A DNA stretch of 64,000 nt. Source: Bdellovibrionales bacterium (GTDB taxonomy: Bacteria > Bdellovibrionota > UBA1018 > CAIMNF01). Location: NCBI GenBank assembly GCA_947372355.1, contig CANBTI010000002.1:42580-106579 (forward strand), given 5' to 3'. The translations under genes were made by a program, and so were the position numbers. Under the pieces are notes generated by a model. That model was not told where the DNA came from, did not search any database, and was given only the letters and a program-made list of their open reading frames with translations. Each line of letters begins with the position of its first letter. The first letter of the stretch is position 1. Shown piece after piece: positions 39,879 to 46,127 of this stretch.

Positions 39879-40367
39879 TCAAAGATTGAGATGCCCCTCA
39901 CTTTGTGGAATGGCATTAATGATTAATTTTTTAATCTCAGCATCTGAACCTTGTAGAAATTCTCGTTTGATTTCATGGGTGATGAAACCAATCGTATTTG
40001 GCTTAAGGGCGCTTCTGAGTAAGCCTAAAAAGCGTGGACCTGCAACAAGTACTAATTGCTCATACTTCTTTTCTGTTGCTGCACGCTCTAAGTAGTCTGC
40101 AATTCTTTTTGCAAAAAGTTTTGCTAGATGTTCATGTTTAGATTCTTTGGGTTCAAGTCCATGCCTGATGGTGTTACCTGCGGAGCTACCGATGCGCCCC
40201 TCTCTATCTGAAACCAACTCACTTTCCATTTTTTTACCTTCTTTATTTTCCAATCGTTCAATAAAGAAAAAAGGCTTATTTTTTTTATCAGCATAAATTA
40301 CCGATTCAACTCGATTCGCAAGTACAAACCATGTGACAGGGCGATAAGAGGAAATTTTATTATTCAT
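39879..40367 (-). CDS. host attachment protein (baeRF-like, 'protein required for attachment to host cells')
   Basis: WFVLANRVESVIYADKK; RHEHLAKLFAKRIADYLERAATEKKYEQLVLVAGPRFLGLLRSAL. Confidence 0.8.
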   Translation of the reverse strand: MNNKISSYRPVTWFVLANRVESVIYADKKNKPFFFIERLENKEGKKMESELVSDREGRIGSSAGNTIRHGLEPKESKHEHLAKLFAKRIADYLERAATEKKYEQLVLVAGPRFLGLLRSALKPNTIGFITHEIKREFLQGSDAEIKKLIINAIPQSEGHLNL

Positions 40368-40392: not shown

Positions 40393-41277
40393 AAGCAAAA
40401 GAAATGCCAACGATCAAAATTTGATCGATGAGAAAATATGTCATTAAAAACCCTAAAAATTCCCATCAAAGTTAAAATACAAATTTAAATGGAATGGATC
40501 AACATCCAGGGTTGGCATTGCTTATGCAATTATAGGTTTTAGTTGCTTGAATGTAGCGAAGCTAGATCAAGCTCTTGTGGGTGTAAATCTCACCAGCAAA
40601 ATCATCCGGTTGTTGCTGTAGCGATGGTCGAATTTTTAGTGGCGACATTAAAAATAGATGCCGACTGTATAAGTTGCCTGACTTGTTCAGGTGAGCGAGT
40701 GACTTAATAGGTTGTAGCCGTAAGGCGAGTTCCGTTTTTAATTGGGTTGTGATGTTGAGCTTGCTCAAGCAAAGCGAAGACGATCACCATGAACGAAGCA
40801 CCGGATATGTGCAGTTGATGGATCATTAATCTGATAGGAAGCGACATGTTGAGAAGGAGCAAGGTTGAAAGCTCGGAACTGCTAAAGCATTACTCGAAAA
40901 GCTTTTTAATTTCGAGTAAAGGTTTTTTGAATAAACCAATTAACTACTGGTGAAATCAAGAGATGCGTTTTAGTAGGGCGGTTGAGATCGGTTAAACCTT
41001 TAATCGGAAACGATCATTGGTGAGGATCTCTCTAGTGAAAACGGGTTGAAAGATTCGTTTGAATGGTAGTTTTTTAGATTTGTAAGAACCTGAAAGACGA
41101 AGAATGGAAAGCAAATTCAGAGTTTAGACTAGGTATGTTGTAAGCAGCTTAACTTGCCTAAACACTGAAGAAGGCTCCATTTGATGTGCCAGCTGATCAG
41201 CCGTACTGGGGAAAACCTAATGTGCGGAATGAGTAAATAAGGGGAGGTGGATTGTAAAATCCACCTCCCATTTTTTT
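40393..41277 (+). ncRNA. candidate large structured non-coding RNA (or very long structured 5' leader) ending in an intrinsic terminator
   Basis: About 0.9 kb with no convincing ORF. Helices on the + strand include aatgccaac/gttggcatt (40403-40411/40511-40519), gcttga/tcaagc (40545/40567), a 10-bp helix capped by GCGA (40632-40655), cctga/tcagg (40677-40691), ttgag-cttg-ctcaa (40755-40768), ttactcgaaa/tttcgagtaa (40890-40919), gagatc/gatctc enclosing cggtta/taatcg (40984-41030), gtttag/ctaaac (41122-41163), ccgtac/gtgcgg (41201-41227), and a 12-bp terminator. The 5' end is uncertain. Confidence 0.7.
41242..41277 (+). terminator. strong Rho-independent terminator
   Basis: gggaggtggatt-gtaa-aatccacctccc (12 bp perfect) followed by attttttt. 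Confidence 0.92.
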
Positions 41278-41289
41278 AGGAGAATTGAT

Positions 41290-43164
41290 ATCGAAAAACA
41301 AAAACCTCAACCAGAAGCACAAAAGTTTAAGTTTGATTTTAGGTTTTTGCTGGTTAGCTTAATGGTCGTTTTTTTTATTAATTATTATTTCCTTCAAAGA
41401 GATACTGAAGAATTACCCTATAATAAATTTTTAAAATTTGTAGATGAAGGCAAAGTTTCATCTGTCGTGATTGAAGACAGTCGAATCATGGGCGAATTAA
41501 AACCTATTGAGAATAATAAACTAACTCGCTTCGTAACCGTTGCCGTAAAAGATGATACGTTAACTCAAAAATTATATGAAAAAGGGGTGAGTTTTAAAGG
41601 CCAATTAAAAAATCCATTGGTCAGTTTTTTTGCCTCTTGGGTATTCCCACTCATCTTTTTTTATTTTTTATGGTCATTCATCATTGGCCGAGCGGGTGGA
41701 GCGGTAGGTTCTGGTGTTCTCTCCATGTCAAAATCTAAAGCTAAAATATACGTAGAAAAAGAAGTGAAAACTACTTTTAAGGATGTGGCAGGCATTGATG
41801 AAGCCAGCGATGAACTTCAGGAAATTGTAAGATATTTGCAAGATCCTAAACGATATGCACGTCTTGGTGGTCATGCACCTAAAGGTGTTTTATTGGTGGG
41901 GCCGCCTGGAACTGGAAAAACATTGCTAGCAAGAGCAGTTGCTGGTGAAGCAAAAGTTCCTTTTTTTTCAATTAATGGCTCAGAGTTTGTAGAAATGTTT
42001 GTAGGGCTTGGTGCTGCTCGAGTTCGAGATATGTTTCAACAAGCAAAAGAACAAGTTCCATGCATCGTTTTTATTGACGAGATTGATGCACTGGGGAGAT
42101 CTCGTGCGATGAATGCAATTGCGGGCACTAACGATGAAAAGGAACAAACTTTAAATCAATTGCTGGCTGAGATGGATGGTTTTGATTCGAGCGAAGGGGT
42201 AATTATTTTTGCGGCTACCAATCGTCCTGAAATATTAGATCCTGCATTACTACGGGCTGGTAGATTTGACCGCCAAATTGCTTTAAATAATCCTGATCAT
42301 GAGGGGCGATTGCAAATTTTAAAAGTTCACGTAAAAAAAATAAAGTTAGATCCCACCGTTGATCTTAATCGAATTTCTTCAATGACATCTGGATTTTCTG
42401 GAGCGGATTTGGCTAATTTATCCAATGAAGCTGCCTTGGTGGCTACTCGTCGAGATGCACTGAGTGTGATAGAAAATGATTTCTTGGTAGCAATTGAAAG
42501 AATGGTTGCGGGTTTAGAGCAAAAGAAGAAAGTAATGAATCCGTTGGAAAAAAGAAAAACTGCTTTCCATGAACTTGGTCACGCAACTGTGGCATTGGCA
42601 CTAGAGGTTCCAGATAAGGTGCATAAAGTAACGATCATACCTCGAGGAATGGGTGCACTAGGTTATACGATGCAACGACCAGAAGAAGATCGTTATCTAT
42701 TAGAAGAAAGTGAATTAATTGCAAAAATTGCAGTTTTGTTAGGCGGAAGAGCAGCCGAAAAAATATTTTTTAATTCAACGAGTACTGGAGCATCAAATGA
42801 TTTAGCAAAAGCCACCGATATTGCAAGAGCAATGGTGATGCAGTTTGGAATGGGAACTTCATTAGGAATGGCCAGTTATGATCAAAAGAGATCCCGATAT
42901 TTAAGTACTCCCTTTGATGGCTATTCCTCTGAAATGAGTGAAGAAACGTCTAGGGAGGTGGAACTTGAAATTAAAAAAATATTAAACTCTGGGTTTGAAA
43001 CAGCTATTAAATCAATTCGAGAAAATAAAAAATTTATTGATCTTGCTGTGATCGAGCTTTTAAAAAAAGAAACTCTCGATGAAAAAGAGATTCAGTCCTT
43101 CTGGGGAATTCGAACTCAATCAAATGGATCAGGCCTCACTGTGGGAACTATTGTCGCCCATTAA
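41290..43164 (+). CDS. ftsH: FtsH-family membrane AAA+ zinc metalloprotease (accessory copy); start uncertain (track gives TTG 41347; ATC 41290 fits the SD)
   Basis: [30 protein letters not shown], zinc motif [13 protein letters not shown]. Strong SD aggag at 41278-41282 is 7 nt from ATC 41290 in the same open frame. Confidence 0.88.
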
Positions 43165-43176
43165 TTTTAAGGAGAT

Positions 43177-43641
43177 ATGAAGATGCTACACTTTACCAAT
43201 CACATCAAAGAGCACATGACCAAGCATCCCGTTCTTACTTCCAGGACAATCTCGGTGGAAGATGCTCTGGTATTGATGAAAAAAAAAGGATTTCGACATC
43301 TTCCAATTGTTGAAAATTCTAAAGTAGTCGGCATTGTGAGCGATCGAAGCTTGAAAGAGGCGGGATATTATTCCGATACCATGCGGCTAACGGTGGGAGA
43401 TGTCATGGTCTCTGATCCCTATTGCGTTGATATTAGAACTCCATTTTCAGAGGTAATACAAAATATGACCGATCGAAAAATTGGAAGTGCAGTTGTTTTG
43501 AATTTGGATCATGAAGTGGTTGGCATTTTTACGTCATATGATGCAATGAAAATATTGGCTAGCGTGGTTGAACACAAATTTGAAGATAAAAACTTTGAAC
43601 CCAATATGGAGCAATTTATCTCGGGTAATCTTTTTATTTAA
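43177..43641 (+). CDS. CBS-domain-pair protein
   Basis: KEHMTKHPVLTSRTISVEDALVLMKKKGFRHLPIVENSKVVGIVSDRSL ... second CBS VGDVMVSDPYCVDIRTPFSEV. Confidence 0.92.
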   Translation: MKMLHFTNHIKEHMTKHPVLTSRTISVEDALVLMKKKGFRHLPIVENSKVVGIVSDRSLKEAGYYSDTMRLTVGDVMVSDPYCVDIRTPFSEVIQNMTDRKIGSAVVLNLDHEVVGIFTSYDAMKILASVVEHKFEDKNFEPNMEQFISGNLFI

Positions 43642-43681
43642 ATGGCCGAAGTCTTGCACATTTATTAAATGAGGTGAGCCA

Positions 43682-44851
43682 ATGTACTTTAAAAATCGTG
43701 AGCAGGCGGGTGTTTTTTTAGCAAATACGCTATTTGAAAAATTCAAAAAAAGAAAACCAATTATTGTTGCAATTCCGAGGGGAGGGGTTCCGGTTGCTCA
43801 ACCCATCGCTTATCTTTTAGATTCCCCACTGACGATCATTTCAGCACGAAGAGTTGGATCACCTTCCAATCAGGAGTATGGAATAGGAGCAGTGAGTGAG
43901 GATGGTCAAGTATGGATGGATTATCAAGAATTAGGTGTTCTAAAAATTGAACAATCCAAAATTGATCAATCCGTTGATCGAACCATGCTTGCCGCTATTA
44001 GATCTCTTAAGGCAAAAGGAGTTAAGGAAATCACCATTGCAGTACCAGTAGCCTCAGAATGTGGAATAGATTTGGTTAGGGCTGAAGTCGATGATGTTGT
44101 TTCAGCTTATACACCTACATATTTTACTGCGGTTGCTAAATGGTATGAGGATTTTTCTCAAGTAGAAGATAAAGAAGTTTTAAGGCTACTTGAGATGGCT
44201 AACAATCCTCCAGTTAAAGATTATTTTGCCCAGGAAGTGGAGATTGAAGTCGAAGGTGTAAAATTAATGGGAACATTGACATTACCTAAAAATAATAAAG
44301 CTTGGATCATTTTTGCACATGGAAGTGGAACAAGCAGAAACAGTAAGAAAAATATAGAATTGGCGACAAAATTTAATGAGGCTGGTTTTGGAACTCTTCT
44401 TTTTGATTTATTAACAGAAGATGAGGGAAGATTTAGGGCTACTGTTTTCGATGTAGATTTTTTGGCGCATCGATTATCCATGGCTACTCGATGGCTCAAA
44501 AGACAGGATGTTTGGAGACAAAAACCGATTGGATATTTTGGTGCAAGTACTGGTGCTGCTGCGGCGTTGGAATCATGTGCCTTATTTGAACCAGATATTT
44601 TTGCAGTCGTTTCAAAAAGTGGAAGACCCGATTTAGCGAAGAGTTTAAAGCGAGTGAATGCTCCAACACTATTGATTGTGAGTGAAAAAGATAAACAAGA
44701 AATAGAGTTAAATGAATATGCACGTAAATTAATTCCTCAAGCTAAACTTCATATTATTCCCGATGATTTGGAGCAGGTACTTGGTGAATCGAAGGATTGG
44801 TTTCAGAGTGTTTTGAATCGGTTCAGAAAGGATCACCATGTCGACGCGTGA
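43682..44851 (+). CDS. fusion of (degenerate) phosphoribosyltransferase domain and dienelactone hydrolase-like alpha/beta hydrolase
   Basis: FKNREQAGVFLANTL...AIPRGGVPVAQPIAYLLDSPL; VAKWYEDFSQVEDKEVLRLL; hydrolase FAHGSGTSRNS, nucleophile elbow GASTGAA. Confidence 0.88.
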   Translation: MYFKNREQAGVFLANTLFEKFKKRKPIIVAIPRGGVPVAQPIAYLLDSPLTIISARRVGSPSNQEYGIGAVSEDGQVWMDYQELGVLKIEQSKIDQSVDRTMLAAIRSLKAKGVKEITIAVPVASECGIDLVRAEVDDVVSAYTPTYFTAVAKWYEDFSQVEDKEVLRLLEMANNPPVKDYFAQEVEIEVEGVKLMGTLTLPKNNKAWIIFAHGSGTSRNSKKNIELATKFNEAGFGTLLFDLLTEDEGRFRATVFDVDFLAHRLSMATRWLKRQDVWRQKPIGYFGASTGAAAALESCALFEPDIFAVVSKSGRPDLAKSLKRVNAPTLLIVSEKDKQEIELNEYARKLIPQAKLHIIPDDLEQVLGESKDWFQSVLNRFRKDHHVDA

Positions 44852-46127
44852 AGAAATTATTGAAACGATGGTCAAGGGTGCAAATCGAATCTCTCACCCA
44901 TTGGATTTAAGTTCATTAGCAAAAAAAATTGGTGATTCAAAAGTGGTGATGTTGGGTGAGTCTACTCATGGAACTTCTGAGTTTTATTCTTATCGGTCGA
45001 TACTTTCAGAAATATTAATAAGAGAGTATGGATTTAATTTTGTTGCTGTTGAAGGGGATTGGCCTGATGCAACTCGACTTAGAAACTACATACATAAAGG
45101 TGTAGGTAAGAGTGCTCGTTCAGTTTTAAAGCAAAATAATCGTTGGCCACTTTGGATGTGGGCAAATGAAGAAGTGATATCGTTTGCTGAAGTATTGCGT
45201 TTTCATCAATGTTCATTTTATGGATTAGACGTTTATTCTCTCTACGAATCTATTGATGAAGTTCTTCATTATTTGAAAAAATCTAATCCACAATTGGCGC
45301 AGAAAATGAGTGCCCGATATGATTGCCTTGGTAAATTTGAAGGAAATGAGATTGCTTACACTAAATCACTTATCTCTGGTTCGAAAGGTTGTGAAAAAGA
45401 AGTAGCTGCAAACCTAGAAGATTTATTAAGATTGAGAATGGAAAATGAACATGATGGTGGCGAAGCACTTTTTAATGCTCAACAAAATGCCAGAGTGGTG
45501 AAGAATGCCGAAAATTATTATAGAACCATGCTTCAAGGTGGAGCTGATTCCTGGAATGGCAGAGATCATCACATGATGGATACTTTAGAAAAACTTCTTG
45601 AACACCATGGTCCTGAAAGTAAGGCGATTGTTTGGGCACATAATACTCATATTGGCGATTACCGAGCTACCGATATGTGGGGTGAGGGTTATGTAAATTT
45701 GGGTGGTTTGGCTCGTCAAAAATTAGGGTCCGAAAATGTTTCATTGGTGGGATTTGGGAGTTACCAAGGATCTGTGGTAGCTTCACACGCTTGGGGCGGC
45801 AATGAAGAGGTGATGAAACTTCCACCAGCTCAAGCCGGCAGTTTTGAGGATTTATGCCATCGAGCGGCTTTAAAAATGGACACAAAAAATTACTACTTTT
45901 ATTTTGGTGATGAAATGAAAGATAGTCCACTGACTTCTATTTTTGGACATCGTGCTGTAGGAGTGGTTTATAATCCCGAACATGAAAATCGAAGTCAATA
46001 TGTGCCTTCCGTAATGACTGAAAGATATGATGCTTTCGTTTACATTGATCGAACACAGAGCATACAACCCATGAGTGGCAAAATTCAAAAGGGCGTAATT
46101 CCAGAAACCTGGCCTCAAGGACAATAG
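44838..46127 (+). CDS. erythromycin esterase family protein
   Basis: VVMLGESTHGTSEFYSYRSIL; FVAVEGDWPDA; VWAHNTHIGD. Confidence 0.92.
   Translation: MSTREEIIETMVKGANRISHPLDLSSLAKKIGDSKVVMLGESTHGTSEFYSYRSILSEILIREYGFNFVAVEGDWPDATRLRNYIHKGVGKSARSVLKQNNRWPLWMWANEEVISFAEVLRFHQCSFYGLDVYSLYESIDEVLHYLKKSNPQLAQKMSARYDCLGKFEGNEIAYTKSLISGSKGCEKEVAANLEDLLRLRMENEHDGGEALFNAQQNARVVKNAENYYRTMLQGGADSWNGRDHHMMDTLEKLLEHHGPESKAIVWAHNTHIGDYRATDMWGEGYVNLGGLARQKLGSENVSLVGFGSYQGSVVASHAWGGNEEVMKLPPAQAGSFEDLCHRAALKMDTKNYYFYFGDEMKDSPLTSIFGHRAVGVVYNPEHENRSQYVPSVMTERYDAFVYIDRTQSIQPMSGKIQKGVIPETWPQGQ

Follow-up and report, generated by a model that had tools for sequence, protein, structure and literature searches.

A Bdellovibrionota non-coding RNA gene that appears to derive from a group II intron

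The gap at 40393-41277 of a 64,000-nucleotide (nt) stretch of Bdellovibrionales DNA, here called the window, harbours a large structured RNA whose actual extent is about 40540 to 41277. Its helices follow the domain order of group II introns, a sigma-54 promoter motif precedes it, and a terminator hairpin occupies the place of the branch-point domain. Judged by sequence comparison, we consider it probable (about 0.78) that this is a domesticated group II intron RNA, now serving as a sigma-54-regulated stress non-coding RNA and sometimes doubling as a terminated leader. Domesticated group II intron proteins are well documented. Our searches of open-access papers turned up no report in which the complete RNA of such an intron had become a non-coding gene of its bacterial host. 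The RNA described here would be such a case, a selfish intron RNA that a bacterium has taken over as a gene of its own.

A folded RNA with group II-like domains

The initial annotation had noted a long gap without a convincing gene at these positions and had proposed a large structured RNA, and both observations were reproduced. A protein-coding gene was rejected, as the interval contains only open reading frames (ORFs) of 40-68 amino acids (aa) and the stems of relatives show paired changes. The predicted transcript (40540-41277) folds 4.8 standard deviations below its own shuffles, and compensatory changes were seen in 28 relatives. The gene and its parts are as follows:

40394..40409, minus strand: predicted sigma-54 promoter of the divergent gene (TGGCATTTCTTTTGCT), strict pattern
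40513..40528, plus strand: predicted sigma-54 promoter of the RNA (TGGCATTGCTTATGCA), exact consensus; in relatives the RNA core lies at a fixed distance from it
40540..41277, plus strand: non-coding RNA (~738 nt), from homologues, covariation and a fold z of -4.8; 5' end placed by the promoter, 3' end by the terminator
40557..40875, plus strand: domain-1-like region, consensus helices 1-11, closed by CGAGCT/AGCTCG
40575..40722, plus strand: match to RF02003 (group-II-D1D4-4), full model 1-138, 50.9 bits, gathering cutoff 49
40876..40979, plus strand: domain-2-like hairpin, helix 12, both-sided changes in 9/11 pairs
40984..41030, plus strand: domain-3-like hairpin, helices 13-14
41033..41196, plus strand: domain-4-like region, helices 15-17, without an ORF; weakest part of the model in the window copy
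41198..41230, plus strand: domain-5-like hairpin, helix 18, 97.9% of cells paired
41242..41277, plus strand: terminator hairpin replacing domain 6, perfect 12-bp stem without a bulged A, then a T-run

We found about 48 relatives of this RNA, nearly all of them in Bdellovibrionota. Alignment and folding of 28 full-length members gave a consensus of 125 pairs, 93 of which show compensatory changes; removal of six pairs touching the promoter region left 119 pairs in 18 helices. Standard pairs fill 93.1% of the cells in these 119 pairs, compared with 73.0% after shuffling (0/500) and 38-45% after sliding, and the covariation score is 0.651, compared with 0.262 shuffled and 0.12-0.18 slid; the structure was derived from the same alignment, so that the slide control flatters the result, yet the gap is still very wide. 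Several helices named in the initial annotation reappear in this consensus. The stem at 40632-40655 is helix 6, with both-sided changes in 8/8 pairs, the nested helices at 40984-41030 form the domain-3-like helix, and the stem at 40890-40919 falls within domain 2 and, by eye, is retained in the closest copies while both of its strands vary. The hairpin with a CTTG loop proposed at 40755-40768 gives way to a pairing of 40754-40762 with 40772-40781.

The window helices lie in group II order (D1 40557-40875, D2 40876-40979, D3 40984-41030, D4 41033-41196, D5 41201-41227, then the hairpin at 41242-41269), with domain names that we assigned from the helix order, anchored by RF02003 and D5. The model is least certain for D4 in the window copy, where helix 15 pairs at 2/5 positions and helix 17 at 4/8. 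In an Rfam scan of the whole window RF02003 was the sole match above cutoff, and sub-cutoff matches to all other families were taken as chance. The RNA is outside the tmRNA, RNase P, rRNA and riboswitch families, as had been read from the letters by eye, and it is partly recognised all the same, as a group II intron domain. RF02003 matches main-clade members at 31-73 bits and exceeds its cutoff in the window, in a second copy in the same genome and in members of other families. It also matches elements of the same phylum that carry a reverse transcriptase (RT) gene (L120, L124, L127), and thus models real introns.

The D5-like hairpin of the window retains the AGC triad (41199-41201) and an AT (AY bulge) at 41220-41221, letters which bind metal ions in introns (PMC4424553). 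The bulge reads AC or AT in 49/49 full matches and the triad AGC in most, with CGC, TGC and AAC as exceptions. Opposite the triad, families f12 and f19 and part of f23 have the canonical pairing strand (GG-UUC, GGUUG); f10 has GG-UAA, as does part of type C. This strand reads GG-AAT, not GG-UUC, in the window's type A, in type B, in Pseudobacteriovorax and in the remaining f23, so that the triad-UU(C) pairing is absent from the window copy and broken in 17 matches of its kind. Triad pairing is thus eroded in some clades while the triad and bulge letters mostly stayed.

Promoter, terminator and intron hallmarks

The 9-bp long-range helix previously proposed between 40403-40411 and 40511-40519 is not RNA structure; the two strands are the -24 boxes of two divergent sigma-54 promoters upstream of the transcript, and the proposed 5' limit of 40393 was ~150 nt too early. 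The strict sigma-54 pattern has three matches in the 64 kb window, among them the minus-strand site at 40394..40409, and RpoN is encoded in the genome. When TGGCAY-N6-TGCW was sought in the 55 nt before the core of 41 members with a recognisable core, the motif was exact in 26/41 and had at most one mismatch in 32/41, where shuffles give 0.007 and 0.16. Promoter and core are 38-40 nt apart in types A, f12, f19 and f23, and in types B and C the distance is 55-59 nt. An additional hairpin opens the type B RNA; by eye, its pairing is kept while its sequence changes. Homology among the copies begins at GTTGGCATTGC, coincident with the sigma-54 promoter, and finishes in the terminator; the predicted transcription start falls on the opening letters of the intron-like body. 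Reverse splicing does not transfer a promoter that lies outside the transcript, and the copies would therefore have spread as DNA. Between the two divergent promoters lies a palindrome-like sequence (40411-40427, CGATCAAAATTTGATCG), a candidate activator-binding site.

At the other end, the intrinsic terminator that had been proposed is real, with a 12-bp stem at 41242-41269 and T7 directly after it. The window copy does have a sixth hairpin, which is this terminator: the D6 position is a perfect 12-bp stem without a bulged branch-point A. The 5' GUGYG is likewise not present in the window copy, where the equivalent place reads GUUGCUUG (by reading), and no recognisable exons surround the element. 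No intron-encoded protein (IEP) over cutoff was found in the element's own genome (93% complete). Of 31 carrier genomes, 4 have a group II RT over cutoff, and 12, nearly complete genomes among them, have no match at all. The only RT of the own genome (395 aa, L014:1535-2719, contig C29), which is adjacent to repeat-like secreted proteins, was rejected as an IEP, with 70.7 bits against a cutoff of 300 and a weak maturase match, and it also matches defence RTs (Drt3a, retron). RF00029 (D5-D6) gave no match in the window at E<=10. Among 12 loci, it reached E<=0.1 only in the IEP-bearing introns L105-L108 and in L021; these four introns of the phylum score 39-58 bits, one of them slightly below cutoff, and L021 lies below cutoff.

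Compared with RF02003-class bacterial group II introns, the RNA shares a domain 1 that fits the model, the D1-D5 helix order and the D5 AGC triad with its AY bulge, but it has no recognisable exons, IEP or GUGYG, carries its own sigma-54 promoter and a terminator for the branch-point D6, and has broken triad pairing in the window's clade. In build the element resembles a group II intron, and in genomic setting a large regulatory or structural non-coding RNA. Because the tests for an IEP, GUGYG, a bulged A and RF00029 failed and exons are unrecognisable, we call the element group II-derived, as its sequence suggests, and not a group II intron. L021 (JADGPN010000582.1, 1700-2370) is the nearest intron-like relative of the RNA family. 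This group II element in an actinobacterial metagenome-assembled genome (MAG) of the Solirubrobacteraceae has a canonical D5 and a bulged-A D6, has no IEP on its contig and adjoins an IS3-like transposase. The family profile picks up this actinobacterial element at D1 and at D5, two collinear stretches with E ~3e-6 each.

Proposed origin and function of the RNA

We propose that, early in the Bdellovibrionota, the RNA of a group II intron was captured and became a host non-coding RNA gene. A sigma-54 promoter would have replaced the 5' exon, starting transcription near the old intron 5' end, and a terminator hairpin would have replaced the branch-point domain 6. The cell would then make nothing but the intron body, with neither exons nor an IEP, and selection would keep the folded scaffold of domains 1-5. 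The sequences themselves show the family with its structure and its relationship to group II introns, the promoter motif, the terminator and the genes nearby. We infer that the RNA is expressed in response to a stress signal: most likely a sigma-54 activator that fires under stress would switch on its synthesis, and the product would work in trans, whether as stable RNA or as ribonucleoprotein scaffold. Directly before stress genes (here ftsH), the terminator might let a fraction of transcripts continue into the operon. There is also a small chance that the RNA is a host-owned trans-acting ribozyme under sigma-54 stress control, with which the clades that have an intact D5 still cut or join other RNAs. 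If so, it would be a bacterial parallel to the birth of the spliceosomal snRNAs. Among these, U2/U6 have a presumed kinship with group II intron RNA and show an AGC motif and an AU bulge (PMC4424553). U2/U6 are fragments that act in splicing, whereas here an entire intron body is found, in a bacterium without a known splicing role.

Several points weigh against domestication as we propose it. The RF02003 score of the window is barely over its cutoff, RF00029 is reached by no tested member of the RNA family, and the family profile (nhmmer) shows no full-length homology to any IEP-bearing intron. The f10 members have no sigma-54 motif, one relative (L015) is apparently without D5, and nearly all genomes compared are MAGs.

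An ORF-less group II intron that still splices or moves, with its IEP supplied in trans, would explain the D1-D5 order, the retained AGC and AY bulge, the several copies per genome and the canonical triad pairing of the f12 and f19 members. We regard this as quite improbable, since the promoter is conserved with an element whose reverse splicing could not copy it, the 5' GUGYG and the bulged A are absent from the window copy, 27/31 carriers and the own genome have no IEP over cutoff, and the position is stand-alone and intergenic, with no phage or plasmid match. Bacterial group II introns that lack an ORF, C.te.I1 among them, resemble the RNA in that respect; they splice, and they are found within genes or share a genome with related introns (PMC4424553). 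ORF-less group II derivatives are rare and seem short-lived in bacteria (PMC4424553), unlike the RNA described here, which is spread over a phylum. Functionless, decaying intron relics, to which the 17 matches with broken triad pairing could point, are barely credible given the compensatory changes across families and the kept promoter.

The initial annotation had also raised the idea of a giant cis-regulatory leader. A role solely as a cis-acting leader, in which a sensor and its terminator control ftsH, hsp20 and similar genes, is in our view unlikely: several same-genus copies, the type B copies in G001, G004, G006 and G010, stand alone and face a convergent gene, yet they have the same promoter and structure. 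They end 15-16 nt from this gene (an MFS transporter by reading), and the RNA itself must therefore be the product there. A leader is possible at loci like the present one and is not the whole story; at many loci the terminator lies 7-130 nt before a co-directional stress gene, and no sigma-70-type promoter was found between the terminator and ftsH at the window locus. Kinship with the large ornate bacterial RNAs OLE, GOLLD and ROOL (PMC12286853), also suggested earlier, found no support: the domains of the RNA are those of group II introns, and it has no match to those Rfam models. A new ornate class of that type, with merely convergent group II similarity, would fit the size, the stress neighbours and the lack of an RF00029 match; full-length RF02003 matches in independent clades, together with a correctly placed D5-like hairpin that has the triad and the AY bulge, make it very improbable. 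The raiA motif or ModT RNA (RF03072, PMC11706538) is likewise a stand-alone structured RNA and is linked to growth-phase transition in its hosts (PMC11706538), and one relative here precedes an HPF gene. It differs in size (215-260 nt), in its sigma-A promoter and in its Bacillota/Actinomycetota hosts (PMC11706538), and has no Rfam match here; a link of raiA/ModT to group II introns was rejected, as that paper names these only in its references. The Bdellovibrio HD100 non-coding RNAs merRNA and APsRNA6 were also set aside, since their paper gives no group II link.

Relatives and genomic neighbourhood

The second copy of the own genome lies on contig C119 (81% identity, alignment 40511 to 41289), and a third copy, in a genome of the same genus, has 71% identity. 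In the tree the clades follow lineages, and types A, B and C are paralogues. Relatives outside the phylum were sought by one pattern scan, for the D5-like hairpin over one genome per GTDB species; it returned 16 stretches, one from the Solirubrobacteraceae MAG and the others from Bdellovibrionota-named records or records with a closely related element. A covariance model built from the same hairpin and searched in 375 genomes of the phylum was positive in 53, including 10 of the window's genus, although the weakest matches in these 53 genomes may be true introns. The RNA family had no match in phage or plasmid records, and the D5 pattern none in viral contigs. Relatives outside the window's class (L097-L100, L102), which have an AAC triad (CAACCGUA...UACGGAUCC) and no sigma-54 promoter, are possibly a separate derivative. 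Two contigs of a Pseudobacteriovorax MAG (L019, L032) both start 44 nt before D5 with identical sequence, and this genome thus probably has several near-identical copies.

The genes around the RNA of the window are:

39879..40367, minus strand: divergent gene, Host_attach / baeRF family, 162 aa (Pfam PF10116, 107.6 bits)
41347..43164, plus strand: FtsH protease, which opens the downstream stress operon (NCBIfam TIGR01241, 741 bits); frame open upstream to at least 41284
43177..46127, plus strand: rest of the stress operon, a CBS-domain protein, a phosphoribosyltransferase/hydrolase and an erythromycin-esterase-like protein (Pfam)

The stress-type operon noted initially is thus present, and the association with stress genes recurs in other families of the phylum. 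The RNA lies upstream of Hsp20 (L013, L090, L092, L095), the HPF gene (L015), CBS genes (L078, L083, L085, L095b, L096) and an NtrC-type sigma-54 activator (L094), and downstream of phosphoribosyltransferase/erythromycin-esterase genes (L072, L075-L077); a Usp gene lies upstream in L095, and a BON protein is found in L093. Among 98 nearest genes, Hsp20 was seen 4 times with ~0.1 expected and CBS ~7 times with ~0.4 expected, a rough estimate made by hand from 37 Hsp20 genes in 15 carrier-type genomes and ~20 CBS domains per genome, in which the neighbours of related genomes are not independent.

The RNA of the window ends 7 nt ahead of the open FtsH frame. Similarity to FtsH begins at about residue 24 of the frame that is open from at least 41284 (window 41278-41347), and no in-frame ATG, GTG or TTG lies near the AGGAG at 41278-41282; the start may be ATC/ATT, or the MAG may contain an error. 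At the L095 locus (genome G191), two RNA copies flank the Hsp20 gene, and a CBS gene follows the second copy.
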